NCBI GenBank assembly: GCA_015178975.1
Contig: WHVD01000137.1
Span: forward strand, 62,001-126,000
From: Hysterangium stoloniferum
Lineage: Eukaryota; Basidiomycota; Agaricomycetes; Hysterangiales; Hysterangiaceae
Reading direction: 5' to 3'
Length of the DNA stretch: 64,000 bases
The translations under genes and the position numbers were made by a program. Below are positions 1 through 60,960 of this stretch, piece after piece; the first letter of the stretch is position 1, and each line of letters begins with the position of its first letter. The notes under the pieces were generated by a model. It saw only the letters and a program-made list of their open reading frames with translations. It searched no databases and was not told where the DNA came from.

Positions 1-500
1 CCGTGGAGGTCTTGGCTGTTCGATCCTTTGCAAAGTTTGCTTTTGCCAGCAGACATTCTGGAACTTGATGACTGGGTTTTCCACACAAGAGACAGAGGTT
101 ATTGTCCATACGATGTTGCCTTTCTTGTGGGGTCAATTTGCCATCAGGTCTAAGCTTGCCTGTGAGGTCGAGTTTTCCAGTTTGCTTGCTGGACTGTTGA
201 CCTTTGTTGTTGTTGTTGTTGTTGTTGTTGTTAGAAGACTTTTTATTTGTCAGATTGCATGGAGTTCTGGTTGCTGGTTGATGAGTGGTTTTATTGGCCA
301 TGGACTTGTTCACTTTGTCTGCAGAGGTCTTGTGGGAAAATTCCGTGTGACATTCCCAATAGCGTGCATCTGCGTTTTGATCCTTAAGATGCATACAGGA
401 CAGGGTTTTTGGCTTGCCATCTTCTCCTTTCGAGACTTCATCTTTAAGGCGGGACAGCAGACCGGCATAGAATTGGTGGTGGAGAGTGGGATCACCCCAC

Positions 501-1185
501 TGTGAAGGATAGGTTATATAGGAGGTGCGACTCAAGGCTCTAAGCCTTAGTCCTTAGCTGCTTTATAATGCCATTATTTCCTTTATGTTTTATATTTTTT
601 TATTCTCTTTTTATCACTCATAAATACGGGTCATACCCCCTTTTTATTAGTTCAAGAGTCCATGTATGCTTGTGGGCGCTCTCACCCACAAGAAGTATGT
701 GTATGTCACAGTAGTAGTCACACGATACAAACTCAGACACTTTTCAACCCTGACAACCATCACCTGCACACAAGTACTGGTTTGGGGTCTTGTCTAAAAA
801 CAAACCTTCAGTCTATCTCTCTTCCTAGATCTACAGTAACTACACTTCACACTGAAACAGTCGAAGTCAGTTACTATTATTTGACTCGACTTCAACCTCT
901 TGCTTCACATGGTAAGAATATCCATCGTAGCTCACTTTCTTAGGATATTCTCTCTTTCTCTCACAATATATACTTTCTCTCCTCTACTTGGCCATTGGCC
1001 TAGCTAGCTACACAGTCGGATCGTACTGTTAGGTCAATCCGCTCTGTAATCATCTACTGATCACACCTTAAAGGTCAATCGTAATCTATATTTTGACTAC
1101 CTAAAACTACTAGTCAATTGTATTTCATACTATCGCTAGTCAATAACAATCACACATTGAGTGGTAAACTACTCGACCCTTTACA
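501..1185. mobile_element. Solo LTR, family B, inserted in gag
   Basis: A TG...CA sequence (TGTGAAGGATAG to CCCTTTACA) flanked by the 5-bp direct repeat CCCAC at 496-500 and 1186-1190. It separates two parts of one gag frame, so it inserted after that element. A related copy in the opposite orientation lies at 45530-45994. It contains the hairpin at 669-692. No internal retroelement genes are present, so this is a solo LTR. Confidence 0.85.
669..692. other. Inverted-repeat hairpin inside LTR family B
   Basis: CTTGTGGGCG, a CTCT loop and CACCCACAAG form a 10-bp stem with one imperfect pair. The same hairpin with a perfect stem occurs in the family B copy at 45815-45838. A weaker GTGGGTGC/GCACC version is seen in family C LTRs. 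Its role is unknown; it could be a transcript-end or packaging structure of the LTR. Confidence 0.55.
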
Positions 1186-1542
1186 CCCACTGACAATGAG
1201 CTGCAGGATTATTGAATTGGACAATATAGTCCATGATGTGCTGCGTGTCCTTCATGCAAAGATTAGTGAGACTGTTCTCGGCTTCTCCGGTCAGGTCATA
1301 TGGGCCAAAGTTGGTTTCAAGTTCCTCAACAAAAGCATCCCAATCTTTGAGCCAGAGTGGCTCTTCCTCAGAAAGTCCGCTAAAAGCTGGTTCGAACCAT
1401 TTCAATGCAGATCCCAACAAGCATGAAAGTGCGTAGTTGACTTTATGGGAGTCTGTGGAGAATGCAGAAGATTGATCGTGGAAATTGAAGCTCCATTGCA
1501 TGAGGAAAGTGGAGAGTTTGGTAGGGTTGGAACCCATGAAGG

Positions 1543-2565
1543 TGTTAAGTGCCGTGTCAGGAACTTATTCCGGAACTATCGGAAAGTCACCGGAAAGTCG
1601 GGAACTATCGGATAGGGTCAGGACGTCGGCTTCAGCTTATGTGCTGCGCCTCTATGCAAACACTCAAAGTCCTTAATTTCAGAAGTGTGAGGAGTATGCT
1701 TTTACCACAGTTTCATTGTGGTAAAACACTCCTTTTATTTTATTTATATTTTACATATTCTATTCATAATTTTCTATCTTTCATATTCTTCAAATATTGC
1801 ATACTTCATTAGTTTGAAGCATTGTGTATACTTGTGGGTGCACTCAGCACCAATTAGAACTCAGACACACTTTAACCCAAGAACCACCACTCGTAAGACA
1901 TAAACTAGGTCTACTACAAATGGTGATCAGGGTAACGTGTCAGCTACTACATAAGTAGTAGTATCTGAACTATCTAACACTTCAGGCCCCGAACTGTAAC
2001 AGTCGAGGCCTCCACTCAAACCATCGCGCTCGTTGACTCCTTCGTCATCTCGTGCTCCTTCTCTCACTTTCTCTTATATTGCACTGAATAGGTCAATATC
2101 CTTCCTTTCTACTCATTTCTTCGTATATAGAATGGTCAGAACTTCCGCCACTCTTCACAAGAAGTGAGACTTACGATGGAAGATATGGATATTCAGAGTT
2201 CCGAAGAGTTCTGAATATCGAGCGTACAGAAAGACGGAAGAAGGAATAAGAAACTAAGTCGATATCAGATCTAAGGTAAAGTACAAATTTGCGGAAACTA
2301 ATATAAGTCTTCTCATTATTGTACTACAAACTAAGACCATAATAAGATGGAAACGGAAGTATTCTTAAAATGGAAATACAATAAGACATATCAGGGAGAC
2401 AATATTCCGAAACAGGAATATAATAAACAAAAGAGTGAATACTTGTCAACGGACAAATTACCAAATGCAGAACAAGGGAAGAATGCGGAAGATACGGTAA
2501 CTATGATGTTCCGTAGTCAGAGATCGGAAGTCGGATATTGAAACATCTGGGAACAGGTTGTAACA
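1543..2565 (-). mobile_element. Solo LTR, family A, with a nested family C LTR
   Basis: An LTR of the same family as the complete element at 46877-54360, in opposite orientation (TGTTAAGTGCCGTG to GGTTGTAACA). The 5-bp target duplication is GAAGG at 1538-1542 and 2566-2570. It splits the gag remains of the older element. Another LTR is inserted in it at 1686-2159. Removing that insertion and its duplicated 5 bp leaves about 544 bp, the same as the sibling solo LTR at 45403-46416. Confidence 0.88.
1686..2159. mobile_element. Solo LTR, family C, copy 1 (474 bp)
   Basis: TGTGAGGAGTATGC to CTCTTCACA, flanked by AGAAG at 1681-1685 and 2160-2164. It sits inside the family A solo LTR. The copy at 56200-56673 has the same length in opposite orientation, and a shorter copy lies at 56873-57279. 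It is the youngest layer of a three-deep nest: gag, then family A LTR, then this LTR. Confidence 0.88.
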
Positions 2566-2945
2566 GAAGGGTTCTGGAGCATTGACTTTTGACCGCAGAG
2601 GTTCCGGATCCTTCTTTTTGCCTTCTCCGAGCATATGATTCATCAACCTTTCTAAAGTGATTGCTAAATACTCAGAGGTGGGGTTTAAAAGTGGCAGTTG
2701 ATCGTTAGATGGAGGATTTTGACACCCTTGCCCTTGTCAGGGGCCACGGACTTGTCCTCATGCTCGGATTTGTCCTGGTTTTCTGGGACTTCTTCAATAT
2801 GGGCTTCTTTCATGGCTTCCGGCTGGTTTGCGAGTGTCTGGCTGGTATACAAAGTTAACAGGAAATGAAGAGTTGACAGCCCAGGTAATGATGCCTGTGT
2901 GTGCGCTTTTCTTCTTGGTGGCATATTGAATAATCTGCAAGTCTT

Positions 2946-2956
2946 AGTCAGAAAAT
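2946..2956 (-). other. Primer-binding site of the gag-D element, matching its own LTR
   Basis: Eleven bases next to the LTR (2 nt from its inner end at 2959) are complementary to the stretch at 3292-3302 inside the LTR (ATTTTCTGACT). The Tf1/sushi group primes reverse transcription from the first 11 nt of its own transcript, and this geometry fits that known mode. The complete element at 46877 shows the same spacing with a different sequence. No classical tRNA-type TGG site is visible next to the LTR. Confidence 0.6.
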
Positions 2957-2958
2957 AC

Positions 2959-4510
2959 TGTTAAGGGTGCATACTCGGAGGGTTTCCAGAGAAACCTGCA
3001 GGAAATCTGGTAGGACTTGGCTTCAGCTTATAGGCTGCACCCTCATGAGATCGTGTTGTCCAATTTCAAATGGGCGGATGGGAATCCCGGGGAGTCTGGG
3101 CAGAGTTCGTGGGTCGAGGGGTTGTGGGTCAAGAGGTCATGGGTCGAGAGGTCGGGGAGATGAGATAGATGAGTCGGAGGTTGAGTGATAGATGCGTTGG
3201 AGCCCATGGGCTCCGACTAGTGAGAGCGGTGTAATTCAAAGAGGAGTTTAGAGTGGAAAATGTACTAGATTACTGGGGAGAATCTAAGCTGATTTTCTGA
3301 CTGGATTGTATTGTCAGGAACCGGACAACCCGCCGGCGTCCGGGCCCCCGGACCCCGTCCTACATGCTCCCGACCCTCTATATTGTATAGTAACAACCGG
3401 AGTTCCCACGGGAGCCTGTATGTCAACTTGTTTATGCCTGACTCTCTGTACGCACCCCACCTGTCTGCACCTAACCCTCTATGTCTCATACACCAGTCCT
3501 CGGACTCCCCGGACTCCGGACTCCACCCTACATACACCCGACACTCTGTGTCTTATGTACCAGTCACCGGACTCCGACCGGACTCCTGGAACCCCTCTAA
3601 CAGAGCATAGAACCCCGCTCCTGTTATCTGTCTCTGCATCTCACACACCAGTCATTGGAAAACCCACCGGACTCCACCGGACCTCCTGCACATCAAGCCT
3701 GTCTATACCCGACACTATCCTGTGCACCAAGTCACCGGACTCCGACCGGACTTCCAGAACCCCTCTAACTGAGCCCCGTTCCAGTTATGGTTAAATGATC
3801 TGTCATGATTCGTTCTCCGCTCCCGTTCCGTTCCGTCCCTAATTCCCAGTTTAGTATTTACCTGTTTTGTTTTATGTTTAATAGTTCTGCCTCTCATTAA
3901 TACCGGATTTGGTATTATTACATTTCACAGTCTATATAAGTCTGCTATGTTCATGTACTTAGAATTCAGTTTCAATCTCGAACTAGTTTTCCCCCGAACA
4001 AGTTTGATCCTTGAACAGTCTCTAGTCCTCTTGTCTGTCTGCACACTCAATTCCCGGAACTCCCACGGGAACTCCGGAATCTATATCTTCCTGTATGCAT
4101 TCTGTCAGCTCGAAATATGGACACCCGAATGAGTGTATGAGGGCGCAGCCTATAAGCTGAAGCCAAGTCCATCTCAGTCGTATCACCAGACTTTCTGGTA
4201 ATTATTCTGATATCACCGTTCCTTGTACTAATAATCCCCAGAACTTTCCCGGGACCTATTGCCCAGGGACTCCGTGGGACTATTTCCTGGAAGCAAGTGT
4301 GTGTTCGGAATAGTTACCGGAAACCTCCGCGGGACTATCCGTGGAGCTTTGTTTGGGAACTTAACATGTATATACAACATCTGCCAGACTATATAGACTG
4401 TGGAATGAATAACATACCAAATCCAGTAATAATGAAAACGAAACTAGGAAACATAAAACGAGATAAGTAAACACCAAACTTGGTGTTAGGAATGGGATGG
4501 AATGTGTCAT
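2959..4510 (-). mobile_element. LTR of the minus-strand gag element (family D), opened by LTR F
   Basis: Starts TGTTAAGGGTGC next to the primer-binding site of the gag element, so it is that element's 5' LTR read on the minus strand. It is interrupted at 3312-4366 by another LTR. The sequence resumes at about 4372 (the CTATATAGACTG region), as shown by the related copy where the two halves are contiguous near 56000-56150. The right end is unclear; homology fades near 4510. Related family D pieces lie at 46724-46876 and from 54370 on. Confidence 0.7.
3312..4366 (+). mobile_element. Solo LTR, family F, inserted in the family D LTR
   Basis: About 1055 bp, TGTCAGGAACC to GGGAACTTAACA, with the 5-bp duplication TGTAT at 3307-3311 and 4367-4371. 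The first half is a degenerate minisatellite of CACCGGACTCCGACCGGACT-like units (about 3480-3780). A TATATAAG box near 3932 suggests plus-strand transcription. Long open frames here are a by-product of the GC-rich repeats. Confidence 0.75.
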
Positions 4511-44924: not shown

Positions 44925-45240
44925 GTGGGAAGATCAATAAGTATGCATCTAAATTGTCTAGAGCCATCTAGGAGAGCTAAGCTTGACTAGACTGTTAAAA
45001 GTGTAGAAAATGAATGGCCAGACTGGGGATTGAACCCAGGGCTTCTGCATATATAGCAGGGGTGTTAACCATTACACCACCTGACCCTGGGAAACATGGC
45101 TAGCATTACTCAATCTAACATAGACATGGCTAGACACACTACTTTCGTGAGATCCTTATTTACTAGTTGGTATAAAAGCTTACTATAGATCTAGGGAGTC
45201 TACATAATGGGTGTAGACATTCCCAAATCCCTCAGGTAAA
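44925..45240. repeat. Dispersed repeat carrying a tRNA-like gene
   Basis: Shares both flanks with 8350-8560 but has an extra middle of about 130 bp containing the tRNA-like gene at 45016-45086. From 44368 to 44925 I see no gene. Confidence 0.55.
45016..45086 (-). tRNA. tRNA-like gene, anticodon position reads TAT
   Basis: 71 nt fold as a cloverleaf: acceptor GGTCAGG/TCTGGCC, D arm GTGT-AATGGTTA-ACAC, anticodon arm CCTGC-TATATAT-GCAGA (one C-A mismatch at the base), a 4-nt variable loop, and a perfect T arm CTGGG-TTCAATC-CCCAG, then discriminator A and a TTTT pol III stop within a few bases. By position the anticodon is TAT (Ile), but base 33 is A instead of the near-universal T. It may therefore be a tRNA pseudogene or tRNA-derived sequence rather than a working tRNA. 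No intron. Confidence 0.6.
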
Positions 45241-45529
45241 GTTATGCTCAAGATGATGTAATTTGGGGGATTTACCTGAATTAAATCTCCTAAGTGTATT
45301 ACAGCTGTTTCGGGTACATAGTGCGAAATTTGAAAATCAATGAAAAAAAGTCTGCTTTGGCCCCAAAAACAAATTGCCATATAACACCATAATGGGGAGA
45401 GATGTTAAGTGCCGTGTCGGAAACTTATTCCAGAACTATCGGAAAGTCACCGGGAAGTTGGGAACTATCGGATAGGGTCAGGACATTGGCTTCAGCTTAT
45501 GTGCTGCACCTCTACACAAACACTCAAAG

Positions 45530-45994
45530 TGTAAAGAGTTGTGTATTCGGACCATTCTGTATACAAAGGATATCGACTATTGCAGTGCGATATTAGAGAG
45601 AGTGAGAGAGAGAGAGAGAGCTAGATGACGAGTTCAAGCCTGAGCTGTTAGTTAGCTCAGATAGTTCAGATAATGCTACTTATGTAGTAGCTGGCATGTT
45701 ACCCTAATCACCGCTCGTAGTAGACCTAGTTTAGTGTCTTATGAGTGGTGGTTTCTGGGTAAAAAGTGTGTCTGAGTTCTATTATGTGACTACTACTGTG
45801 ACATACGCATACTTCTTGTGGGCGCTCTCGCCCACAAGCATACATGGACTCTCGAACTAATAAAAGCGTATTTATGAGTGATAAAGAGAGAAATAAAAAT
45901 ATAAAACAGAAAGGAAATAATAACATTATAAAGCGGCTTAAGGTCTAAGGCTTAAAGCCTTTAGTCGCGCCTCCTATGTGATCTATCCTTCACA
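45530..45994. mobile_element. Solo LTR, family B, nested in the family A LTR
   Basis: TGTAAAGAGTTG to CTATCCTTCACA, with the target duplication CAAAG at 45525-45529 and 45995-45999. It is opposite in orientation to the copy at 501-1185 and shorter. A perfect 10-bp hairpin lies at 45815-45838. A GA repeat lies near 45595-45620. Confidence 0.88.
45815..45838. other. Perfect 10-bp hairpin in LTR family B
   Basis: CTTGTGGGCG, loop CTCT, CGCCCACAAG. The copy at 669-692 keeps it with one changed base. Confidence 0.6.
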
Positions 45995-46723
45995 CAAAGT
46001 CCTTAATTTCAGAAGTGAGACTTACGATGGAAGATACGGATATTCAGAGTTCCAAAGAGTTCCGAATATCGAGCGTACAGAAAGATGGAAGAAGGAATAA
46101 GAAACTAAGTCGATATCAGATATAAGGTTAAGTACAAATTCGCGGAAACTAATATAAGTCTTCTCGTTATTGTACTACAAACTGAGACCATAATAAGATG
46201 GAAATGGAAGTATTCTTAAAACGGAAATACAATAAGACATATCAGGGGGACAATATTCTGAAACGGGAATATAATAAACAAACGAGTGAATACTTGTCAA
46301 CAGACAAATTACCAAATGCGGAACAAGGGAAGAATGCGGAAGATACGGTAACTATGATGTTCCGTAGTCGGAGATCGGGAGTCAGATATTGAAACATCTG
46401 GGAATGGGTCGTAACAAGAGAGTAAGATATAATACTTTGTATACACCATATGTATATATATATGGGGCAAGTTATTCCTTGTTGGAATTGGTGATGAAAC
46501 CACCCTGTTCCTAGGGGTGGTTCACCCATTTCCTCACTTTTTCATAGGAGGATGTTAATTGTGGACCATGTTTTCTGAGGTTAATGCATGCCAGAACCAG
46601 TGTACACCTAAACTAGCATCCTACTTATCATGTCAGAAGGTGATTCACTAACTGACACATTGATTGACAAACAAGTACTATTATTACAAGTCTATTACCC
46701 ACTTGTAGATTGTGTATATTAAG

Positions 46724-46876
46724 AGTTGTGCAAGGAGCTTATTGGAGGGTTTCTGGAGAAACCTGTGGGAAAGCCAGTAGGACTTGGCTTCAGCTTATAG
46801 GCTGCACCCTCATGAGATTGTGTTGTCCAATTTCAGACGGGTGGATGGGAAATCTTGGGGAGTCTGGGAGGGGTTT
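46724..46876 (-). repeat. Family D LTR fragment at the insertion site of the young element
   Basis: Matches the start of the family D LTRs (GGAGGGTTTCTGGAGAAACC, GACTTGGCTTCAGCTTATAG, the GGGAGTCTGGGAGGGG end). The complete element inserted at its right side (GGTTT target). A second family D LTR starts right after the element at 54370, so two family D pieces stood next to each other before the insertion. Confidence 0.65.
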
Positions 46877-47439
46877 TGTTACGACCCGTTCCCAGATGTT
46901 TCAATATCCGACTTCCGATCTCCCACTTTCGATATCCGATATCCGACTACGGAACATCATAGTTACCGTATCATCCGCGTTCTTCGTTTGTTCCGCATTT
47001 GGTAATTTGTCCGTTGACAAGTATTCACTCGTTTGTTGTTGTATTCCCGTCTTGGAATATTGTCTTCCTAATATGTCTTATTGTATTTCCGTTTTAAGAA
47101 CACTTCCGTTTCCGTCTTATTATGGTCTCAGTTTGTAGTACAATAACGAGTAGACTTATATTAGTTTCCGCGAATTTGTACTTTACTTTAGATCTGATAT
47201 CGACTTAGTTTCTTATTCCTCCTCCCGTCTTTCTGTACGCTCGATATTCGGAACTCTTCGGAACTCTGAATATCCATATCTTCCGTCGTTAGTTCACTTC
47301 CGAAATTAAGGACATTGAGCGTTTGCGTAGAGGTGCAGCACATAAGCTGAAGCCAACGTCCTGACCCTATCCACGAGTTTCCGACTTCCCGGTGACTTCC
47401 CGATAGTTCCGGAATAAGTTCCCGACACGGCACTTAACA
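46877..47439 (+). repeat. 5' LTR of the young element (563 bp)
   Basis: TGTTACGACC to CACTTAACA. A TATATTA box at 47157-47163 lies about 33 bp before the AGATCTGATAT stretch at 47190, the inferred transcript start. That gives U3 of about 313 bp and R-U5 of about 250 bp. Confidence 0.93.
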
Positions 47440-47441
47440 GT

Positions 47442-47452
47442 ATATCAGATCT
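47442..47452 (+). other. Self-complementary primer-binding site
   Basis: ATATCAGATCT, 2 nt after the LTR, is exactly complementary to AGATCTGATAT at 47190-47200 within the LTR. Eleven nucleotides is the length known for self-priming in Tf1. The family D element at the left end of the window has the same layout with a different 11-mer (2946-2956 with 3292-3302). Confidence 0.7.
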
Positions 47453-50400
47453 CAACTCTGCGACTCGCTCATCATGGGTCCCAAACGCAAAGCTGCCGAA
47501 GGACCATCCCAACTTCAATCCCCGTTGCAACTTTACACCACCCAACCCGAAACCCCAATTCAGCCGACAACATCAGCTTCTGTCGAAGAAGTTACTGAGG
47601 AGGTTACCGAGGTAACGAAGGACACCAATGTTCCCCACACTACCGACAACGAAGCAGAAGATCAACCGGATACATCAACAAAACCCTCCGATGATCAAAC
47701 TGGAATGTTGCTTTTTAACTCCATTTCCAAATTCGCTGATTACTTGAAATCCGCTGAGGATAGTAAAGAATCATCCCGCACCGGAGTCAAAGAACCCGAA
47801 CCATTTACCGGCAAGGATCCGAAAAAATTGAAGAATTTCCTTCTTCAATGTTGTTTCAGTTTCCGTGATCGACCCAATGCTTTTAAATCCGACAGTCGAA
47901 AAGTCAATTTTGCGCTCTCATATCTCAAGGATACCGCTCAGGATTGGTTCGAACCCGGACTATCCGGAATATCCGACGAGACACCCGTATGGCTCGACGA
48001 CTGGGATGCTTTCGTGGAAGAACTGGAAACTAATTTCGGACCTTACGATCAATCCGGCGAAGCAGAAAACGAACTAATGACGCTCAAGATGAAGGACAAT
48101 CAACGAGTTTCCGATTATCTCGTCAAGTTCAATACCCTCGCCGCACGATGTGGATGGGACGATTCCGCCCTCAGGCACCATTTCTATATGGGACTTCCGT
48201 CACGCCTTAAAGATGAAATCTGCAAAGATGGGAAGCCAAAAACTCTCCAACTCATGCGGATGAAAGCTCAAACATCCGATGCCCGTTATTGGGAACGAAA
48301 AGCCGAGGTCTCTCGAGAGAACCCGATGGAACATTCTCAGCACAACAAGGCGTCGACTAGCAAGTCTTCCGGCAACAACTCAGGCAATAATACCGGCTCT
48401 GGCACTAATACTGGCAAATCAAATTCCGACCGGAAGAAAGACAAGAAATCCAACAAGGAAAAACAGTCAACTTCCGACAAACCCGACATTTCCCATTTGT
48501 TGGGTACCGACGGTAAACTCACCCCGAAGGAGAAACAACGGCGTATGGACAACGACCTCTGCCTTTTCTGCGGAAAAGGCAGACACAAGGTTTCTGACTG
48601 TACCGTTAAATCTAGCTCTTCCAAGGCCCGCGCGGCAACTTCCACTACGACTACAACGTCTAAGGATAAACCCGCCACGGAGTCGAAAAAAGAGTAAGCA
48701 ACCCTCCGGAATCTGCACGGACAGAGGGTTGCGTTGACTCTCTCCGTGTTTCCGAAGTTGTCCGTCTCAACGCGTCCACTCTCTCTAATCCCGATTCATT
48801 ATTTGTAAAACTCGTCTCTGACTTTCTTGGAAATTTAGTGTTCCAAGCTCTAATAGATTCCGGCTCCACACACTGTTTTGTAGATACCACCTTTGCCACG
48901 AAACATAATCTGAAACTCCATTCTGTTCCCGCAATTTCCTTGCGTTTGTTTGACGGCACTAGCAATACGGCAATTACTCAAGCCTGCGACATGTCTATCC
49001 GGTTCCCTTGTGGAACATCCCAGACAGTTACATTTTTCGTAACACAGTTGGACTCTAGCTGTTCGGCAGTTCTTGGATACAACTGGCTCACCCGATATAA
49101 TCCGTTGATTGACTGGGTATTGGGCAGTATTACTTTCCGGACTCCCGACACTTCCGTTCCTCCTGCAGCGTCTATTCCGGCCAACGCCTTTTCGGCATCA
49201 ACGGCATCTCCGGCTTCTATCGAAACTTCCGAGCCCCCAAAAATCTCTCTCATCAACGCTTCGGCATTTGTTAGGGCGAGTAAACTGGATGGTTCGCAAT
49301 GTTTTTCGATCAGCTTAAAAGTTGATGAAGCATCTGGACGTTTTGTGACTCCAGAATTATCCGAGCTAAAAGCCGATCTGGAAGGAGTTCCCGAAAAATA
49401 CCATGATTTCGCGGACATTTTCAGTAAGCAAAAAGCTGACAGGCTTGCACCACATAGGCCCTACGACTTAAAAATCGATATTGAGCCCGGTTCAAACCCT
49501 CCATTAGGACCTATTTACCCATTATCCCAATCGGAACTTTCATCTATTCGGGAGTTCCTGGATGAACATTTGTCGATAGGTTTTATCCGTCCCTCAAAGT
49601 CTCCGTATGGAGCACCCGTCCTTTTCGTCTGTAAAAAGGATGGCTCCCTTCGACTCTGTGTCGATTTCAGAGGATTAAATTCCATCACACGGAAAGATAA
49701 GTATCCACTCCCACTCGTTACCGACTTACTCGACGCCCCACGGAAAGCTCGAATTTACACCAAAATAGACCTCAAACACGCCTATCATTTGGTTCGAATT
49801 GCCGAGGGTGACGAATGGAAAACTGCTTTTCGGACTCGCTATGGATCCTTTGAATGGTTGGTTATGCCGTTCGGCCTTACCAACGCCCCTTCCGCTTTTC
49901 AACGTTTTGTTAATGATATATTTTCCGACATGCTTGACGTATGTGTTATAGTCTATTTGGACGACATTTTGGTATTTTCCGAGGATCCCGCTCTTCACGA
50001 TGAACAGGTCCGTGAAGTCTTCCGAAGACTCCGTAAAAACGGTCTTTTCGCCAACGGTAAAAATGTTATTTCAACATGGATTCTATTGAATACTTAGGTT
50101 TCATCATCGGCCCTGATGGTCTCCATATGGATGAAACCAAGGTTCAAGTTGTCCGTGACTGGCCCGAACCACGGAAGGTCAAGGACATTCAATCATTTTT
50201 AGGTTTCGCCAACTTTTACCGTCGTTTTATTCGGAACTACTCGGATATTACAGTACCGCTCACTCGTCTTACCCGTAAAACTCAACCATGGGTTTTTGAC
50301 GATAAATGCCGCTCCGCTTTCCAGACTTTAAAAAATGCTTTCACTTCGGCCCCGATTCTTTCCCATTGGAAACCTGATTTTCTGATTATTGTGGAAACCG

Positions 50401-52470
50401 ATGCTTCCGATTATGCAATTGCCGCGATTCTTTCCATTCAAGAGTCCGACGGTGAAATTCATCCGGTCGCATTTCTTTCTCGGACACTTTCAGTATCCGA
50501 ACTCAATTACGACGTTCATGATAAGGAACTTTTGGCAATTTTTGAAGCTTTCAAACATTGGCACCATTATCTCGAAGGTTCCGCAACTCCCGTTGACGTC
50601 GTTACCGATCACAAAAATCTCAAATATTTTTCTACCACTAAACTTTTAACCCGCCGGCAGGCCCATTGGTCTGAATTTCTTTCCGCTTTCAACATGATTA
50701 TCCGTTTCCGACCTGGACGTCTTGGTGGAAAACCAGATGCCATGACTCGACGATGGGACGTCTATCCTAAAGAGGGGGAAAGTAACTACGCTGTTGTTAA
50801 TCCACATAACCTGAAACCGGTTTTTACAACGCAACAACTTTCCGCATCTATCCGAGCAACTTCCCTTTACTATCCAATTATGCGTAGCGTCATGATTATG
50901 GACATTGAGCAATTACATCAAGATATCCTTTCTGCACTCACTTCCGACCTGGCCCTCAAGCCACATTTAGACACTCCCGACAATCCCAACCAACCCCGAT
51001 GGTCACAAGACTCTCAAGGTTTTATCCGTCTCGATGGACATATCTACGTTCCAGATTCCGACAATCTTCGACTCCGCATACTTCAGTATAAACACGATCA
51101 TCCAATCTCCGGACATTACGGCATCAACAATACTCTTGGTTTAATCCGTAGAGAATATACTTGGCCCAACCTCTGAGATTTCGTAACTCAGTTCTGTAAG
51201 TCATGCACCACCTGCTTACGCTCCAAAACCCAGAGGCATAAGCCGTACGGCCTTCTCAAGCAACTCCCGATACCAGAAAAACCTTGGAATTCAATTTCCA
51301 TGGATTTTATCGAACAACTCCCGACTTCTGAAGGCTTTACATCCATTCTAGTCGTTGTGGACCGATTCTCGAAACAAGGCATTTTCATACCCACTCATGA
51401 TACAATCACGTCCTTACAATTAGCGGAACTTTTCATTATTCACGTATTTTCCAAACACGGAGTTCCATCTCACGTAACTTCCGATCGAGGCTCCAAGTTC
51501 GTCTCCCATTTCTTCCAGGCCCTCGGAAAAGCCCTCGACATGAAACTACACTTCACCTCGGGATATCACCCGGAAGGTGATGGACAAACAGAACACGTTA
51601 ATCAAACACTGGAACAATATCTCCGCATCTATTGTAATTACCAACAGGACAACTGGAAATCCCTTCTTCCGATCGCGGAATTCGCCTACAATAACTCCCC
51701 GAATGCAACCACCGGCATATCTCCCTTCTTCGCCAATAAAGGCTATAATCCGAATCTCACAGTACATTCCGAACGAGATTTGGCTTCTGTCCGTGCTCAA
51801 GAATTTATTACCGACCTCGACGAATTACATCAAGAACTTCGGAAAGCTATTTCTTCCGCACAGGAACATTATCAACGTTCCGCGGACAAAAACAGGATCC
51901 CGCCTCCTAATTTTAAAGTTGGTGATCAGGTTTTTGTAAAAGCTCAATTCTTCCGTACTACCTGACCTTCTAAAAAACTCGCTGAGAAATTCTTAGGACC
52001 TTTTGAAATTATAGCACAAGCCGGTTCACTTTCATGGACTCTCTGTCTTCCCGACAGTATGCGAGCAGTCCACCCCGTTTTCCACATTTCCATGTTAGAA
52101 CCTTGTGTTCCCAACTCATTCCCAGAACGTACTCAACCTCCGTCCCCTCCGGTCATCATTGATGGAGAACCCGAATTCGAAGTTTCCGAAATATTGGATT
52201 CTAAAATCGACAATCGCCGACGTACTTGTAAATTGCTCTATTTAGTTAAATGGGCAGGTTATGAAGGTACCGACGAGGAAACTTCATGGATATTGGCCAC
52301 GGAACTTGGACATGCTATGGAAATTGTTACTGACTTCCACACAGCTTATCCAGGCAAACCCGGACCTTTATCATCACTCTAATCTTTCTGTTCCTTTCTG
52401 ATCAACTTCCGACACTTCCGTTTTCACACTCGTTTTAGGTTTTGCAAGTCAAAAAAAATATTATTAAAAT

Positions 52471-53613
52471 CTATCTTAAAGTCTCTGACACCCCAAATCC
52501 ACCTTCCGTCCCAACCTCCGGCTCTTCAGCAATTTCCGCACTTTCCACCATATCCTGTACCTCCTCATCTTCACTCTCCTCTTTTCCCGACCCCCATCTC
52601 CGCTCCACACACTCCGCCAATGGATCGTTCGACTGGTTTTTCGCCTTATCGGCAAATCGTTCAGATACCGCGATTACACCGATACTAACCATCATCTTCT
52701 CCAGGAAATCGTTTTGCCTCCGGAAATTCCGGACCAACGAACAGAAACCCTTCTCCTGGATCTCATTATGGCGATCCAGTGTTTCCCGCATTTCCCGCAT
52801 CTCAACCCCGATGAAGACCATTGTATCGACCAATTCCTTAAGGAGCTCAACGCCCATACCATCTGTACTCGGCAACTTAGTTTCCGCAGTTTTGGTCGCT
52901 CCTGAACCTTCCGCGATGGTAGGTTTTTGAGCCTTTTCGCTTTTCGGAACCCTTTTCGCAGCAAGAGTGCACGGAAGTTTGAGGACCGCACAAGGATAAC
53001 AAGTTCCACCCCATTTTACCTTCTGTTTCCAACAAGTTATATCCCGTACGGAACATCGAGCACATGGAGTGTCATGGGCAATTTCCATCCGTTCCGGAGC
53101 TTTGACCTTTGGTTTCTGTTTCGAAAGTTAAACGACTACCGTTCCCGTTACAGATACACTCACTTTAGGACTCGAAGGCCCAGCTTCTCCCTCTACTTCC
53201 ACCTCCACGGCTTTTCGCTGTACGTAACAGTTATCGGTTGGAACCACGGAAATCTATGGAATTGGACTCACCTTTCCTTCCCTTACCTCCTTACGTTTTT
53301 CCGCCGCCTCAGCTTCTTGTTGTTTCTTCACTTCTTCTTCCTTCAACCTCCGATCCTCCATCACTTTCCGCAACCTCGCCAACTCTTTTTCTTTTTCCGC
53401 CTTCACCCGCTCCAATTCCCGCTTCTCCGCCTCCTCCGCATCTTTCAACTCCTGCATCAACGCTCTTTCCTCCTCCTCCTGTCGTCGCTTCAACTCCTCC
53501 ATTTTCTGGCGTTTTTGTTGAAGTTCTGCGACCTTCGACATCTTTTGAAGTACGGATATTTCGGTATCTGAGTCTTCCGGGGTAGTGATGAATAACGGCT
53601 GACGAATCGACAT
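52471..53613 (-). CDS. Opposite-strand accessory gene inside the LTR element
   Basis: Between the chromodomain and the 3' LTR, the strand opposite to gag-pol is open in two long stretches. The upstream one (from MSIRQPLFITTPEDSD at 53613) is a charged helix rich in Glu, Lys and Arg with heptad-like spacing, probably a coiled coil of about 90 residues. The downstream one (to 52471) has a cysteine cluster, CARCSVRDITC and CYPCAVLKLPC, resembling a fungal binuclear zinc-cluster arrangement, then a second helical part (LLKELVDTMVFIGVEMREMR) and an acidic tail. The interval between them carries intron-like GT-AG borders; I do not join the pieces. A DNA-binding or Gag-interacting role is only a guess. 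Similar coiled-coil plus cysteine-cluster proteins are frequent in agaricomycete genomes. Confidence 0.6.
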
Positions 53614-53797
53614 ACAAGTCGTGGATAAAGAAACAAAAACGTTAATTCGAATATTTGGAGGTTTTTATACTCAGAATAATAACCGAAACTCTCACCTCCA
53701 TAATTGCGTAAATTTCATGACACATAACAGTCAGCCGTCACTTCAAACACTCAGTACCTAATCGCCTCTATGGGATTTCGGCCTAACAGGGGGGTAC

Positions 53798-54360
53798 TGT
53801 TACGACCCGTTCCCGGATGTTTCAATATCCGACTTCCGATCTCCCACTTTCGATATCCGATATCCAACTATGGAACATCATAGTTACCGTATCATCCGCG
53901 TTCTTCGTTTGTTCCGCATTTGGTAATTTGTCCGTTGACAAGTATTCACTCGTTTGTTGTTGTATTCCCGTCTCGGAATATTGTCTTCCCAATATGTCTT
54001 ATTGTATTTCCGTTTTAAGAACACTTCCGTTTCCGTCTTATTATGGTCTCAGTTTGTAGTACAATAACGAGTAGACTTATATTAGTTTCCGCGAATTTGT
54101 ACTTTACTTTAGATCTGATATCGACTTAGTTTCTTATTCCTCCTCCCGTCTTTCTGTACGCTCGATATTCGGAACTCTTCGGAACTCTGAATATCCATAT
54201 CTTCCGTCGTTAGTTCACTTCCGAAATTAAGGACATTGAGCGTTTGCGTAGAGGTGCAGCACATAAGCTGAAGCCGACGTCCTGACCCTATCCACGAGTT
54301 TCCGACTTCCCGGTGACTTCCCGATAGTTCCGGAATAAGTTCCCGACACGGCACTTAACA
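53798..54360 (+). repeat. 3' LTR of the young element (563 bp)
   Basis: Same length as the 5' LTR with about six differences; preceded by a run of G (53789-53794) that fits a polypurine tract; followed by the GGTTT target duplication. Confidence 0.93.
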
Positions 54361-54652
54361 GGTTTGTGGTGTTAAGAGTCATGCCCAGAGCTTATCAGAG
54401 GGTTTCTGGAGAAACCCATGGGAACACTGGTAGGACTTGGCTTCAGCTTATAGGCTGTGCCCTTGTAAGATTGTGTCATCCAATTTCAGACAGGTGGATG
54501 GGAATCCCAGGGAGTCTGGGAGGGGTTCATGTGTTGAGAGGTCAGAGAGTCGACTGCAGGAATTCTGTGGAAGTCGAGGGGTCGGGTGGAGATGAGTTGG
54601 GGGTCAAGATAGATAGGTCAGAGGTCAAGTGATAGATGGGTTGGAGCCTGTG

Positions 54653-56199: not shown

Positions 56200-56673
56200 T
56201 GTGAAGAGTGGTGGAAGTTCTGACCGTTCTATATACGAAGAAATGAGTAGAAAGGAAGGATATTGACCTATTCGGTGCAATATAAGAGAAAGTGAGAGAA
56301 AGAGCACGAGATGACGAATGAGTCAACGAGTGCGATGGTTCGAGTGGAGGCCTCGACTATTACAGTTCGAGGCCAGAAGTGTTTAGCAGTTCAGATATTG
56401 CTACTTATGTAGTAGCTGACACGTTACCCTGATCACCGCTCGTAGTAGACCTAGTTTGTGTCTTACGAGTGGTGGTTCTTGGGTTAAAGTGTGTCTGAGT
56501 TCTAATTGGTGCTGAGTGCACCCACAAGTATACACAATGCTTCAAACTAATGAAGTATGCAATATTCGAAGAATATGAAAGATAAAAAAATATGAATAAA
56601 ATATGTAAAATATAAATGAAATAAAAGGAGTGTTTTACCACAATGATACTGTGGTAAAAGCATACTCCTCACA
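56200..56673. mobile_element. Solo LTR, family C, copy 2 (474 bp)
   Basis: TGTGAAGAGTGG to ATACTCCTCACA with target duplication AGTTG at 56195-56199 and 56674-56678. Same length as copy 1 at 1686-2159, opposite orientation. Confidence 0.88.
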
Positions 56674-57648: not shown

Positions 57649-60600
57649 TTAGGAAGGTAAGCTATCATTAGAGTCCATCAGAATCACCTCCTTCCTTAAA
57701 TGAGTACCAGAGGCTATCCCCCATACCCTTGAAGCTGGCTTTGCTCCCTTCTCTTCATCATCCAAGAGTGGCGCATCAGTTACATACTCAGATTCTGCCC
57801 TTACAATCCCCAAAGGTTTGTTACTGTATATCCGCAACAGCGCATCGGCAAACGTATTCGACTCCCCAGTAATAAAGTGAATATCAAAGTCAAATTCATT
57901 CAAAAGGTCCAGCCAATGTGTCTGTCTTGGAGAAAGGCTCTTCTGTGTAAGGATATACTCTATACTTTTATGGTCAGTACACACTCGAAATTTGACGCCT
58001 AGTAACTGAGGACGAAACCACTTCAAGGACTCAACAATTGCCAACAACTCTTGCTCATGCACAGGATAGTTCTGCTGAGCTGAGTTGAACTTCCCGGACC
58101 AGGATACCACTGCCACTGTCCTTACATTGTCACCTTGACTCAGGATACCACTGGTGCCAGTTAAGCATACATCTGTAACGAGGTTGATAGTTGGGTGACC
58201 TGGTGAGTAGTTCAAAGCAATCTGATACCGATCTCGATGAGCATGAACAATACGCTTGACATCCTCAAAAGCACATTGTTCAGTTGCACCCCATTGCCAC
58301 GCCTTGTTGACACTGGTAAGTGTGGCCAGATTGGCCATGGGAATTCGAATGCCCTCGCAGTTATTAGCCAGATAGCCAACTGCCTCCAGAAAACCAGCCA
58401 AGAGGGCCTTATTTGTAGGTACCTTCCAGTTGGCTACAGTATCTACCTTATGTGGGTTCATCTTTATTCCTTTATCATTTATCACATGCCCTAATAAGTT
58501 CAATTCTGAGGTGAACAAATGCATCTTGTCGACTGCTAGGTATAGTTTCTCCTGACAGCACACCTTGAAGATGGTTCGGAGGTGCTTTACGTGATCTCCA
58601 ATGGAATCCGAATATACCACAATGTCGTCAAAGTATACATCCATAAACACCCCAATGTATGACGCAAAAAGATGGTTCATGAGAGTCTGATATGTGGATG
58701 GTCCATTGCAGTCACCAATCTGTAATGTCAAACTTTCCATGGTCCCATCGGGAGAAGTGAACAATGTGTGGTGAACATGCTCAGGTACCACTCAGATTTG
58801 CTCATATGCATCTTTGCCCCCAATGAGGCTGTGGTACTTGTGACACACAACATTCTGCAGGATGGCCTCGATATCCAGCAAGGGTGTCGTTAATTTATAG
58901 GTATTGGCATTCTGTTCACGCTTGTCGACCACTGTGCGTATCCGTAAAGTTCCGTCAGTGTTTGGTGGTTTTGGGATGATAAGCATTGGACACGCATTTG
59001 TACCCATTGCTACCCTCCACCAACCATTTCGTAAGTAGGCATTCTTCTTATCCTGCCACAGCTGATGCATACCTTCAGGACATTTAGATGGTCGCCATGA
59101 ATAGACTTTTGCCTCGTCTATCAGCGGAATAGTATGGTTGACTGCCCGCAAGGGGGGTAGCCACGTGGATGCTGTATCAGGGTCCAGACCAGCTGCTTCA
59201 GCCTGCAAATCAGCCCTTAACCTTTCCAACTCATCCTCAAAAGTTTCTGCCACTGCTGAGTGTAGTACTGCTACAGTGTCCCCTTCGAGGGGAAGTGGTA
59301 GGTTTGACCCGATATTAACTCGTGTAGGATTCAACCCAAGCATAACTTGGTGTTGAAAAATAAATGGAGTCCCCAATATAGGTCATAGGAATCAAGGTTA
59401 GCTACATCAAAACGGTGAGAGCAATTTATACCCTGATAGGTAAACTTAGCCATTGCGGAAAAATTGATTTTTGACTGTGATCCATGTACAGCCAACTGAA
59501 GGGTCAGCAGTTTTACCAGTGGTTCTTTAGTAACCCGCAGCTGATCAACCAAGGCCATTGACATAAAATCTGCCAATGACCTGCTATCAATGAGAGCCTT
59601 TACTGGTCGACCATTAATGAACACCTCAATGACAACTGGTTTTGGCAACCAGCGAGTAAAATCCTTGGGCTGCATTGAGGTACGCTCAACTGTTTCGACA
59701 CCTCCATAGTTCAACTGATCCTGTTTTTTCCCAGCCGTCTTCCCCTTAGGGATATGAACACCATTTACAGAAATGATAGGCTCGGATGAATCCTCCTTGG
59801 TTGCCTGCTGAGTGTGTATCTGAGGAACACTCCACTCCTCATGTTGTAGGTGGTCTGGAGTCACTATATACTTAACAGCCAACTCCCAGTCGTGAATTTC
59901 ATATAATCCAGCGGTACAACGGACTCAGAACTACTGTCTTTCCACACCATAGATATCTCAACAGATACTTGTCGTGTAATATATGCGAAAGTGAAGCTCC
60001 AATAGCTGGCACATAGCATCTCGATAGTATCTTCTAAAGGCAGGCATATCGCGGGAGAACCCAGGTATGTGTTCCTCATATACAGCCTGTATTTTATCTT
60101 TGAAGTCCTCATTAAGCCTTATGACAGACCAAGGCATAAACAATGGAAGGTCAGTATTCGCTTCATCCCAGATACAGAGTCCAGTGTCTTCAGTGTAAAC
60201 CCTAAAGTGCATGTTGGGGGAAATACCTTCCTGAAATGCTTCTTCTGGCAGGAAGTATTCATGCAATGCCCCCAGAAGCAGGTGTCCCAATGTGACCTCC
60301 CCTGAACTGGGTGGGTCATCATCCCCCAGTATACAAAGGAGTTTGGTCCCAGCCATATTGAAGAACAAAAGGCTGTCCTGCAACTTGAAACCTTTATACT
60401 CCCTCAGTGCGACCAGTATTTTTGAAAAGAAGTGGTCAGTACCATACCTTCCCCAAAATATGTTGGGAATGTCCAGCCCTAGATTAGAGTCTGAACCAAT
60501 ATTCGCTAGAGAGAAATTGGAGAATGATCCCCCTTGTGACTGGTGCCTCCTGCCCTCCATTGTCAATGGTGGGTCAATCTCCTCAGAAGGGCTGGGTCCT

Positions 60601-60839
60601 GTAGCATTGCTAGGTGTACCTGCCCTCATCCCCTGTGGTGGGTTCTCTGTGGGATGACCAGGGGAACCTTCCCCAGTCTGATCCACGGTATGTTCTTTTG
60701 ACTTCCTGCCACATTGTCCCCGTGATACTATTCCAGCTAATGTTGCGTATGACGGATGTGGACGAGTGGCCACCCTACTCGACCTCCTTGATGGTTCCTT
60801 GGCGACCAGTACCGTAGACCTGGTGTACAATGGTGTCAC
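57649..60839 (-). mobile_element. Ty3/gypsy element, old and broken, minus strand
   Basis: Parts recognised on the minus strand, in order: a gag-like region (about 60.8-60.0 kb, from MTPLYTRSTVLVAKEP), an aspartic protease-like region (about 59.9-59.4 kb, GRPVKALIDSRSLADF), reverse transcriptase (about 59.3-58.3 kb, VYFDDIVVYSDS; DKREQNANTYKLTTPL upstream) and RNase H (about 58.3-57.8 kb, VHEQELLAIVESLKW, FRVCTDHKSIEYI). It belongs to a different lineage from the young element: the gag and the protease are not alike. At least three breaks. No LTR pair or target duplication was found. It is older than the element at 46877-54360. Confidence 0.85.
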
Positions 60840-60874
60840 AATGCTGTGAGCCTTCCTGGCCCGGATGTACAGTA

Positions 60875-60960
60875 TACTCTATACCCCCTATACTGCCCCC
60901 CATTTGCGATATTGTTGTTCCACGGCAATCTCACAAATTAACCATTGTCATGTACAGTTA
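60875..60960. repeat. Short direct repeat, copy 1
   Basis: Matches 63100-63185 imperfectly: both contain CCCCCTATA(C/T)TGCCCC, a GATATTGTTGTTCCA/GATATCATTGTTCCA stretch and ATCTCACAA. The copies flank the tandem-repeat block. They might be the ends of LTRs of the neighbouring old element, but I found no clean borders. Confidence 0.45.

Follow-up and report, generated by a model that had tools for sequence, protein, structure and literature searches.

A spliced antisense gene encoding a probable DNA-binding protein in a chromodomain Ty3/gypsy element of Hysterangium stoloniferum

Antisense extra genes were recognised in LTR retrotransposons decades ago and, to our knowledge, no function has been assigned to them. 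One such gene lies in the window analysed here (64,000 nucleotides of Hysterangium stoloniferum contig WHVD01000137.1), between the chromodomain of a Ty3/gypsy element and its 3' LTR, and it raises the question of what it encodes and what the product may do for the element. A preliminary description of the locus had reported an interval of more than 1 kb that is open on the strand opposite gag-pol. The interval from the gag-pol stop to the 3' LTR is 52383-53797, and the gene limits that had been given, 52471-53613, proved exact.

The domain order, the LTRs and the target duplication all fit a chromodomain Ty3/gypsy element (chromovirus) at 46877-54360, in a host genome of 111 Mb in 554 contigs with 42 Zn_clus domain matches, a number in keeping with a fungus. 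Its parts are as follows.

46872..46876, no strand: left target site duplication, GGTTT, the same 5 bp as at 54361-54365
46877..47439, plus strand: 5' LTR, 563 nt, TGTTA...TAACA, from repeat comparison
47438..48697, plus strand: gag open frame, ATG at 47474, Retrotrans_gag PF03732 (E 2e-14), zinc-knuckle-like
48670..52382, plus strand: pol (protease, RT, RNase H, integrase, chromodomain), from Pfam domains and ORF limits
53798..54360, plus strand: 3' LTR, 563 nt, 14 copies of TTCCG/CGGAA
54361..54365, no strand: right target site duplication, GGTTT

The two LTRs differ by 6 mismatches, 5 of them at CpG positions. The zf-CCHC_5 match in gag scores under the Pfam cut-off; pol matches PF08284, PF00078, PF17917, PF17919, PF00665, PF24626 and PF00385. 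The pol of the window copy is defective, with a frame change at about 50061-50097 and TGA codons at 51174-51176 and 51963-51965. We refer to the family of the window element as F1; it is one of three gene-bearing families, the others being F2 and F3/F9.

Other repeats surround the element. A solo LTR of family F1 lies in reverse orientation at 45403-46417, with an insert at about 45530-45995 similar to the repeats at 56384 and 56990. Remnants of a related element occupy 1-3041 on the minus strand, among them gag pieces at 60% and 42% identity and LTR pieces at 86-97%. A further gypsy-type element, used as a control, lies on the minus strand at 57652-60878; its RT/RNase H shows 28% identity to that of the F1 element, and its CpG ratio is 0.41. 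Some 25 nt that read like GGCTTCAGCTTAT..GCTGC are repeated at 45491, 46783, 47333 and 54434 and in the LTR parts of two F2 loci (L050 and L051), that is, in the LTRs of two families and in other nearby repeats (by eye; 41-nt LTR matches). A tRNA-Ile gene with anticodon TAT is at 45015-45086 on the minus strand.

Opposite gag-pol, between the chromodomain and the 3' LTR, the minus-strand open stretches 53254-53664 and 52471-53127 are parts of one gene with three exons and two small GT-AG introns. Upon removal of both introns, a single unbroken frame of 346 aa runs from the ATG at 53613 to a stop ending at 52471. The preliminary description had spoken of two open stretches; both exist, as parts of one gene, and the two introns and a TATA box had been missed.

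52471..53613, minus strand: antisense gene, full coding span, 346 aa when spliced, from splice sites in copies and pN/pS
53272..53613, minus strand: exon 1, long charged helix (AlphaFold2 helix 12-112)
53218..53271, minus strand: intron 1, 54 nt, GTGAGT...GTACAG, GT..AG in 40/40 close copies, position and phase common to F2
53164..53217, minus strand: exon 2, basic/acidic linker with SSPK at its end, from sequence and F2 comparison
53116..53163, minus strand: intron 2, 48 nt, GTGAGT...AAACAG, GT..AG in 40/40 close copies, position and phase common to F2
52471..53115, minus strand: exon 3, with a basic stretch (KPKVK), six cysteines in a Zn2Cys6-like cluster, a second helix (predicted) and an acidic C-terminus
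53614..53797, minus strand: 5' region of the antisense gene from ATG to 3' LTR, putative promoter, from sequence, with a polypurine tract at the LTR edge
53663..53669, minus strand: TATAAAA, 56 nt upstream of the antisense ATG

In 39 of 40 F1 copies TATAAAA stands 55-57 nt ahead of the antisense start codon (the remaining copy ends short of it), and at -56 in the window copy it looks like the gene's own promoter. Among close copies, 27 of 194 sites are variable in 53614-53807, a span that includes 10 LTR bases.

To what extent the spliced frame is maintained as a gene was examined in 40 close copies (L001-L040), which were fetched from the genome by searching with the antisense gene itself. 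Both GT..AG pairs are intact in every one of them. The frame is uninterrupted in 27 copies (among them L040, which is 5'-truncated) and carries a stop or frameshift in 13. Variable sites fall at codon positions 1, 2 and 3 in the numbers 89, 78 and 135 over 346 codons, and indels are mostly in threes. Pooled pN/pS is 0.351 for the spliced frame, compared with 0.99 and 1.17 for the other two antisense frames. On the sense strand the three values are 0.89, 1.42 and 0.41, in frames with 208, 469 and 170 stops, against 13 stops in the antisense frame over all rows; the sense frame at 0.41, with its 170 stops, is best explained as an echo of the true one. We conclude that the spliced antisense frame is clearly under purifying selection. 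The survey of copies that had been recommended thus found the frame conserved as protein-coding, as expected for the antisense accessory gene that had been proposed.

Two simpler accounts of the open frame were rejected: a chance open frame, by splice-site conservation, by pN/pS and by a shuffle test in F2 (below), and a sense-strand gene in the same interval, by the 170-469 stops in the sense frames. The same data bear on whether the antisense RNA, and not a protein, might act, pairing with the genomic RNA and feeding or limiting RNA silencing. Such action has been proposed for antisense transcripts of other elements, in the excerpted text of a review (PMC7264820). However, a pN/pS of 0.35, indels mostly in threes and conserved splice sites and cysteines point to selection on the protein, and we consider an action of the RNA very unlikely.

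For 38 of the 40 copies (L021 and L039 were dropped from the pol-end comparison for their short match), pN/pS is 0.206 in the integrase and chromodomain and 0.355 in the antisense gene. In these 38 copies the synonymous difference is about threefold greater in the antisense gene (0.146) than in the integrase-chromodomain region (0.050), possibly through recombination or faster turnover.

The gene also keeps its place. The best 150 of 893 candidate matches to the exon 3 protein have 66-100% aa identity, and 113 of them contain no internal stop (hand count). A converging chromodomain lies within 1 kb of 107 of these 150, at a median gap of 96 nt, and no other arrangement was found within 2.5 kb among them; the chromodomain matches compared were the best 150 of 3014 candidates, and the remaining 43 exon 3 matches were not placed either way. 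From the chromodomain side, exon 3 matches cover 107 of the best 150. In eight divergent copies, several of which carry stops, a chromodomain match lies beside the gene in all eight, the GT..AG of intron 1 is kept in seven and that of intron 2 in eight. In one of these, L042, a divergent F1 copy, an LTR is inserted in exon 2 (about 1419-1941) and disrupts the exon 1 side. No host homologue appeared among the best 150 genome matches, which element copies fill; no exon 3 relatives were found in viral contigs, nor relatives of the F2 exon in a genome-contig search.

A gene with introns and a TATA box resembles an ordinary nuclear gene, and it might therefore be a recently captured host gene, a passenger of no use to the element. 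The sister families bear on this directly. In F2 (L049, L051, L062), pol is 75-84% and gag 57% identical to F1, and the antisense gene stands in the same place. It codes for 292 aa and has two introns (50 and 51 nt), which follow REGK and SSPK in the same position and phase as in F1. GT..AG is present in 11 of 12 F2 rows for intron 1 and 9 of 12 for intron 2, and TATA[A/T]A is found at -57 in all 8 of the 12 copies in which a start codon was found. The F1 and F2 antisense proteins share 42 of 99 residues (BLASTP E 3e-10, a two-sequence comparison); after REGK their local score is 101, against a maximum of 57 over 500 shuffles. Intron positions and architecture common to two families whose pol is 75-84% and whose antisense protein is 42% identical over 99 residues thus argue that the gene is old and kept by selection, as does a frame conserved in many copies, and a recently captured host passenger appears highly improbable. 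The F2 locus L050 has an internal deletion in its antisense gene.

F3 and F9 are one family, with pol DNA 95.1% identical and pol protein 72-85% identical to F1. The F9 locus carries the zinc exon (C-x2-C-x6-C-x9-C-x2-C-x6-C), whereas the F3 locus, with TATAAAA at -60, has only the charged helix and a tail nearly that of F9, as if the middle had been deleted. The gene spans 4083-4529 in L063 (F3) and 3816-4601 in L069 (F9), and the tails read GKKDSPINVD and GKKNSPINVDEE. An F3-type pol frame of 1304 aa recurs many times among the matches listed. Frames in L050 (about 1365-2160, at the LTR of the F2 element) and L063 (6195-6539) look like, and are presumably, Tc1/mariner-type transposases.

What does the gene encode? 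The protein begins with a charged helix of about 100 residues, followed by a basic SPKKxK stretch, a six-cysteine cluster and a predicted helix. The long charged helix of the preliminary description is borne out by AlphaFold2, which models exon 1 alone as a single helix over residues 12-112 (mean pLDDT 90). The cluster had been noted as CxxC...CxxC; a cysteine cluster is indeed present, and it actually comprises six cysteines, spaced C-x2-C-x6-C-x10-C-x2-C-x6-C, as in fungal Zn2Cys6 DNA-binding domains, in which the spacing is C-x2-C-x6-C-x5-12-C-x2-C-x6-8-C. F2 has the spacing of F1, and all six cysteines are invariant in a 6-row alignment of three families. The protein-profile search that had been recommended gave a divided answer. 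A three-family profile ranked PPR1 first (E 0.04) and LEU3 second (E 0.22) among PDB chains, both of them Zn2Cys6 proteins and both weak matches, while single exons scored 8.7 and 11.0 bits against Pfam Zn_clus (PF00172), under its cut-off of 21. With phmmer, single exons gave unrelated weak matches only in the PDB, and exon 3 alone gave a poor AlphaFold2 model (single sequence, mean pLDDT 43). Because of the sub-threshold Pfam scores and the weak PDB E values, we call the cluster Zn2Cys6-like and do not assign it to PF00172. It differs from PPR1 and LEU3, which are its best PDB profile matches and share the six-cysteine spacing, in standing mid-protein behind a long helix, in having few basic residues between the F1 cysteines, in being encoded by a retrotransposon and in falling under the Pfam cut-off. 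Judged from the sequence, the gene probably encodes a DNA-binding protein.

A protein of this kind could serve the retrotransposition cycle itself, in nuclear import, in the pre-integration complex or in the choice of integration site, with any sequence words in the element having another cause. The SPKKxK basic stretch adjoining the cluster would suit such a role, and GENE23 of maize Grande is reported to be nuclear in the excerpted text of PMC7264820. A function of this type, however, gives no reason to expect coding DNA to hold family-specific words in excess of what codon usage yields; such words are what the following counts revealed, and we regard this function as improbable.

Since CGG triplets are the typical target of Zn2Cys6 proteins, words in the elements were counted without choosing any in advance. 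In the F1 LTR the top 5-mer is CGGAA/TTCCG, with 14 occurrences against 2.2 expected (computed on 553 nt from 53808; the count is also 14 in the full 563 nt). In F1 pol CGGAA is again the top 5-mer, with 34 occurrences against 16.5 in codon-preserving shuffles, a count reached by none of 400; it ranks third of 512 words in the F1 antisense CDS. In F1 gag it is not enriched (10 against 7.0, reached by 58 of 400 shuffles), and gag and pol together are enriched in codon-preserving shuffles. F2 favours a different word, CCGA/TCGG, which leads the 4-mers in its LTR, in each half of pol, in gag and in the antisense CDS. In F3/F9 pol, CACGG/CCGTG (overlapping CCACG) comes out on top, at 22 against 7.8 and 18 against 6.6; it is not the top word in the F3 LTR, where CCCG, GACTC and CGGAC lead. 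Words crossed between families are mostly weak (z 2.7 for CCGA in F1; 1.4, 2.1 and 0.6 for CGGAA in F2, F3 and F9), and CpG contexts other than the words are near or under expectation. Over three pol pieces, 8 of 32 F1 CGGAA sites occur at the same site in F2, where the proteins are 77-84% identical; so few common sites in such similar proteins indicate that the words have turned over. No preferred spacing was seen among 77 CGGAA sites, the commonest pair spacing occurring 3 times. Codon usage or amino-acid content as the sole cause of the CGG words is ruled out by the codon-preserving shuffles.

The gene-bearing families were compared with six control elements of four families (the pairs F4/F7, 98.1% identical, and F6/F8, 99.2%, being merged), whose pol proteins are mostly 34-45% identical to F1, and 28% in the window element at 57652-60878. 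CpG observed/expected ranges from 0.98 to 1.25 among the gene-bearing families and from 0.03 to 0.48 among the controls, in which CGG is depleted (z -3.4 to -6.5). Some word reaches a top z of 3.3-4.7 in the controls as well, though it is less replicated between pol halves. When F4 and F5 were followed to about 3 kb beyond their chromodomain, no match to the F1 antisense protein appeared at E 1, and the F2 protein gave only weak ones (E 0.35-0.94). The controls L066-L068 span about 0.8 kb past the chromodomain, which makes absence of the gene less sure there than in L064 and L065, where about 3 kb are covered. Host ORFs, too, show no loss of CpG (505 observed, 506.5 expected), so the normal CpG content of the gene-bearing families is not special in itself. 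Among F1 copies, word CpGs are not better kept than other CpGs (0.895/0.859, 0.869/0.809 and 0.882/0.894; p 0.49, 0.10 and 0.55; LTR and IN-chromo pieces from 38 of 40 copies). A CpG comparison of variable sites, 175/217 against 198/1148, is biased by its own definition and was given no weight.

One use of such words would be by a plain transcription factor on the LTR promoter, either an activator or a repressor limiting copy number, with no anti-silencing role. Zn2Cys6 proteins are usually transcription regulators, the F1 word is densest in the LTR, and the 194 nt upstream of the F1 antisense gene contain no copy of it. Yet the word is also enriched in pol and in the antisense exons, where a promoter factor needs none, and the gene-bearing families escape the CpG loss of the four control families. 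We therefore take this, the main rival account, to be rather unlikely. That the antisense gene regulates the element in some way, as had been suggested, is plausible.

The reading that we favour, tentatively and at a little under an even chance, is that the element encodes an antisense factor that binds CGG words on its own family's DNA and keeps the copies transcribable against silencing. The gene would be expressed from its own TATA promoter and, upon removal of two spliceosomal introns, would yield a nuclear DNA-binding protein. The protein may dimerise via its helices and would bind the family word along the DNA of its own family. Bound copies would then stay transcribable, with silencing blocked or reversed, as VANC does for VANDAL. 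By the rules of splicing, the antisense introns would survive retrotransposition because the sense genomic RNA holds them as reverse complement, and in that form the spliceosome leaves them in place.

What counts for this anti-silencing reading is the conserved spliced frame, the introns and TATA box in two families, purifying selection, the six cysteines and the family words. Several observations count against it. The gene-bearing families form one clade, so that common descent could account for the correlation between the gene, the word and the CpG content. The CACGG word is present in F3 although this variant lacks the zinc part, and the F3 LTR is led by other words. CGGAA is unenriched in F1 gag, word CpGs are not better retained, and host ORFs have normal CpG content. 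The Zn_clus score is under the cut-off and the exon 3 model is poor, and control elements also show high-z words, though less replicated between pol halves. A fuller version seems doubtful to us: in it, an antisense Zn2Cys6-type factor would counter silencing or methylation, the CGG words would have spread by selected point substitutions even in pol, protein and word would have co-evolved between families, and the zinc-less F3 variant would be served in trans by the 95%-identical F9.

Known systems share parts of this picture. The plant antisense aORF-3R genes (Grande gene23, RIRE2, Retand, PvRetro13) lie between pol and the 3' LTR, and Grande gene23 has its own upstream promoter, according to the excerpted text of PMC7264820. 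The gene described here matches the aORF-3R layout of an open gene on the opposite strand from pol to the 3' LTR. As described in that text, the plant genes are present in most copies of their elements and are alike in place, orientation, a conserved protein and a proposed role as nuclear regulator, but no Zn2Cys6-like cluster or family-specific DNA word is described there; the word 'intron' is absent from the review. The nearest fungal precedent for the layout, compared by description only, is brtn (Zhao et al. 2011), an antisense gene between gag-pol and the 3' LTR of a Boty-like Ty3/gypsy element with a chromodomain in Botrytis cinerea; the excerpts that treat it mention neither introns nor a zinc cluster (PMC7264820, PMC8365987, PMC4227169, PMC5987419). 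The excerpts of PMC2864245 and PMC10799480 do not describe the present gene, and in the full-text literature, a body that most subscription papers lie outside, we recognised no account of a basidiomycete element with a spliced antisense gene for a zinc-cluster protein. Antisense extra ORFs are thus already known, in plant Grande and as fungal Boty brtn, and the gene described here adds a variant.

The VANC proteins are anti-silencing proteins of VANDAL DNA transposons in Arabidopsis. Like the present gene they are transposon-encoded, and family-specific short words have accumulated in the elements, according to the excerpts of PMC5735166 and PMC10398659. Family-specific word accumulation is present here as well, except in F1 gag and the F3 LTR. 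In contrast, the VANC words, in those excerpts, lie in non-coding tandem repeats, while here they are spread over the LTR and coding DNA with no tandem arrays; VANC also belongs to a DNA transposon and a plant host, and the likeness is one of words and of encoding.

With conserved introns and a TATA box, a cluster of the DNA-binding type and a candidate target word, the function of this antisense gene becomes directly testable. If the anti-silencing reading is true, these elements would hold a fungal anti-silencing system that parallels plant VANC by means of a different protein, and they would be a clear case of introns surviving retrotransposition by lying on the other strand.
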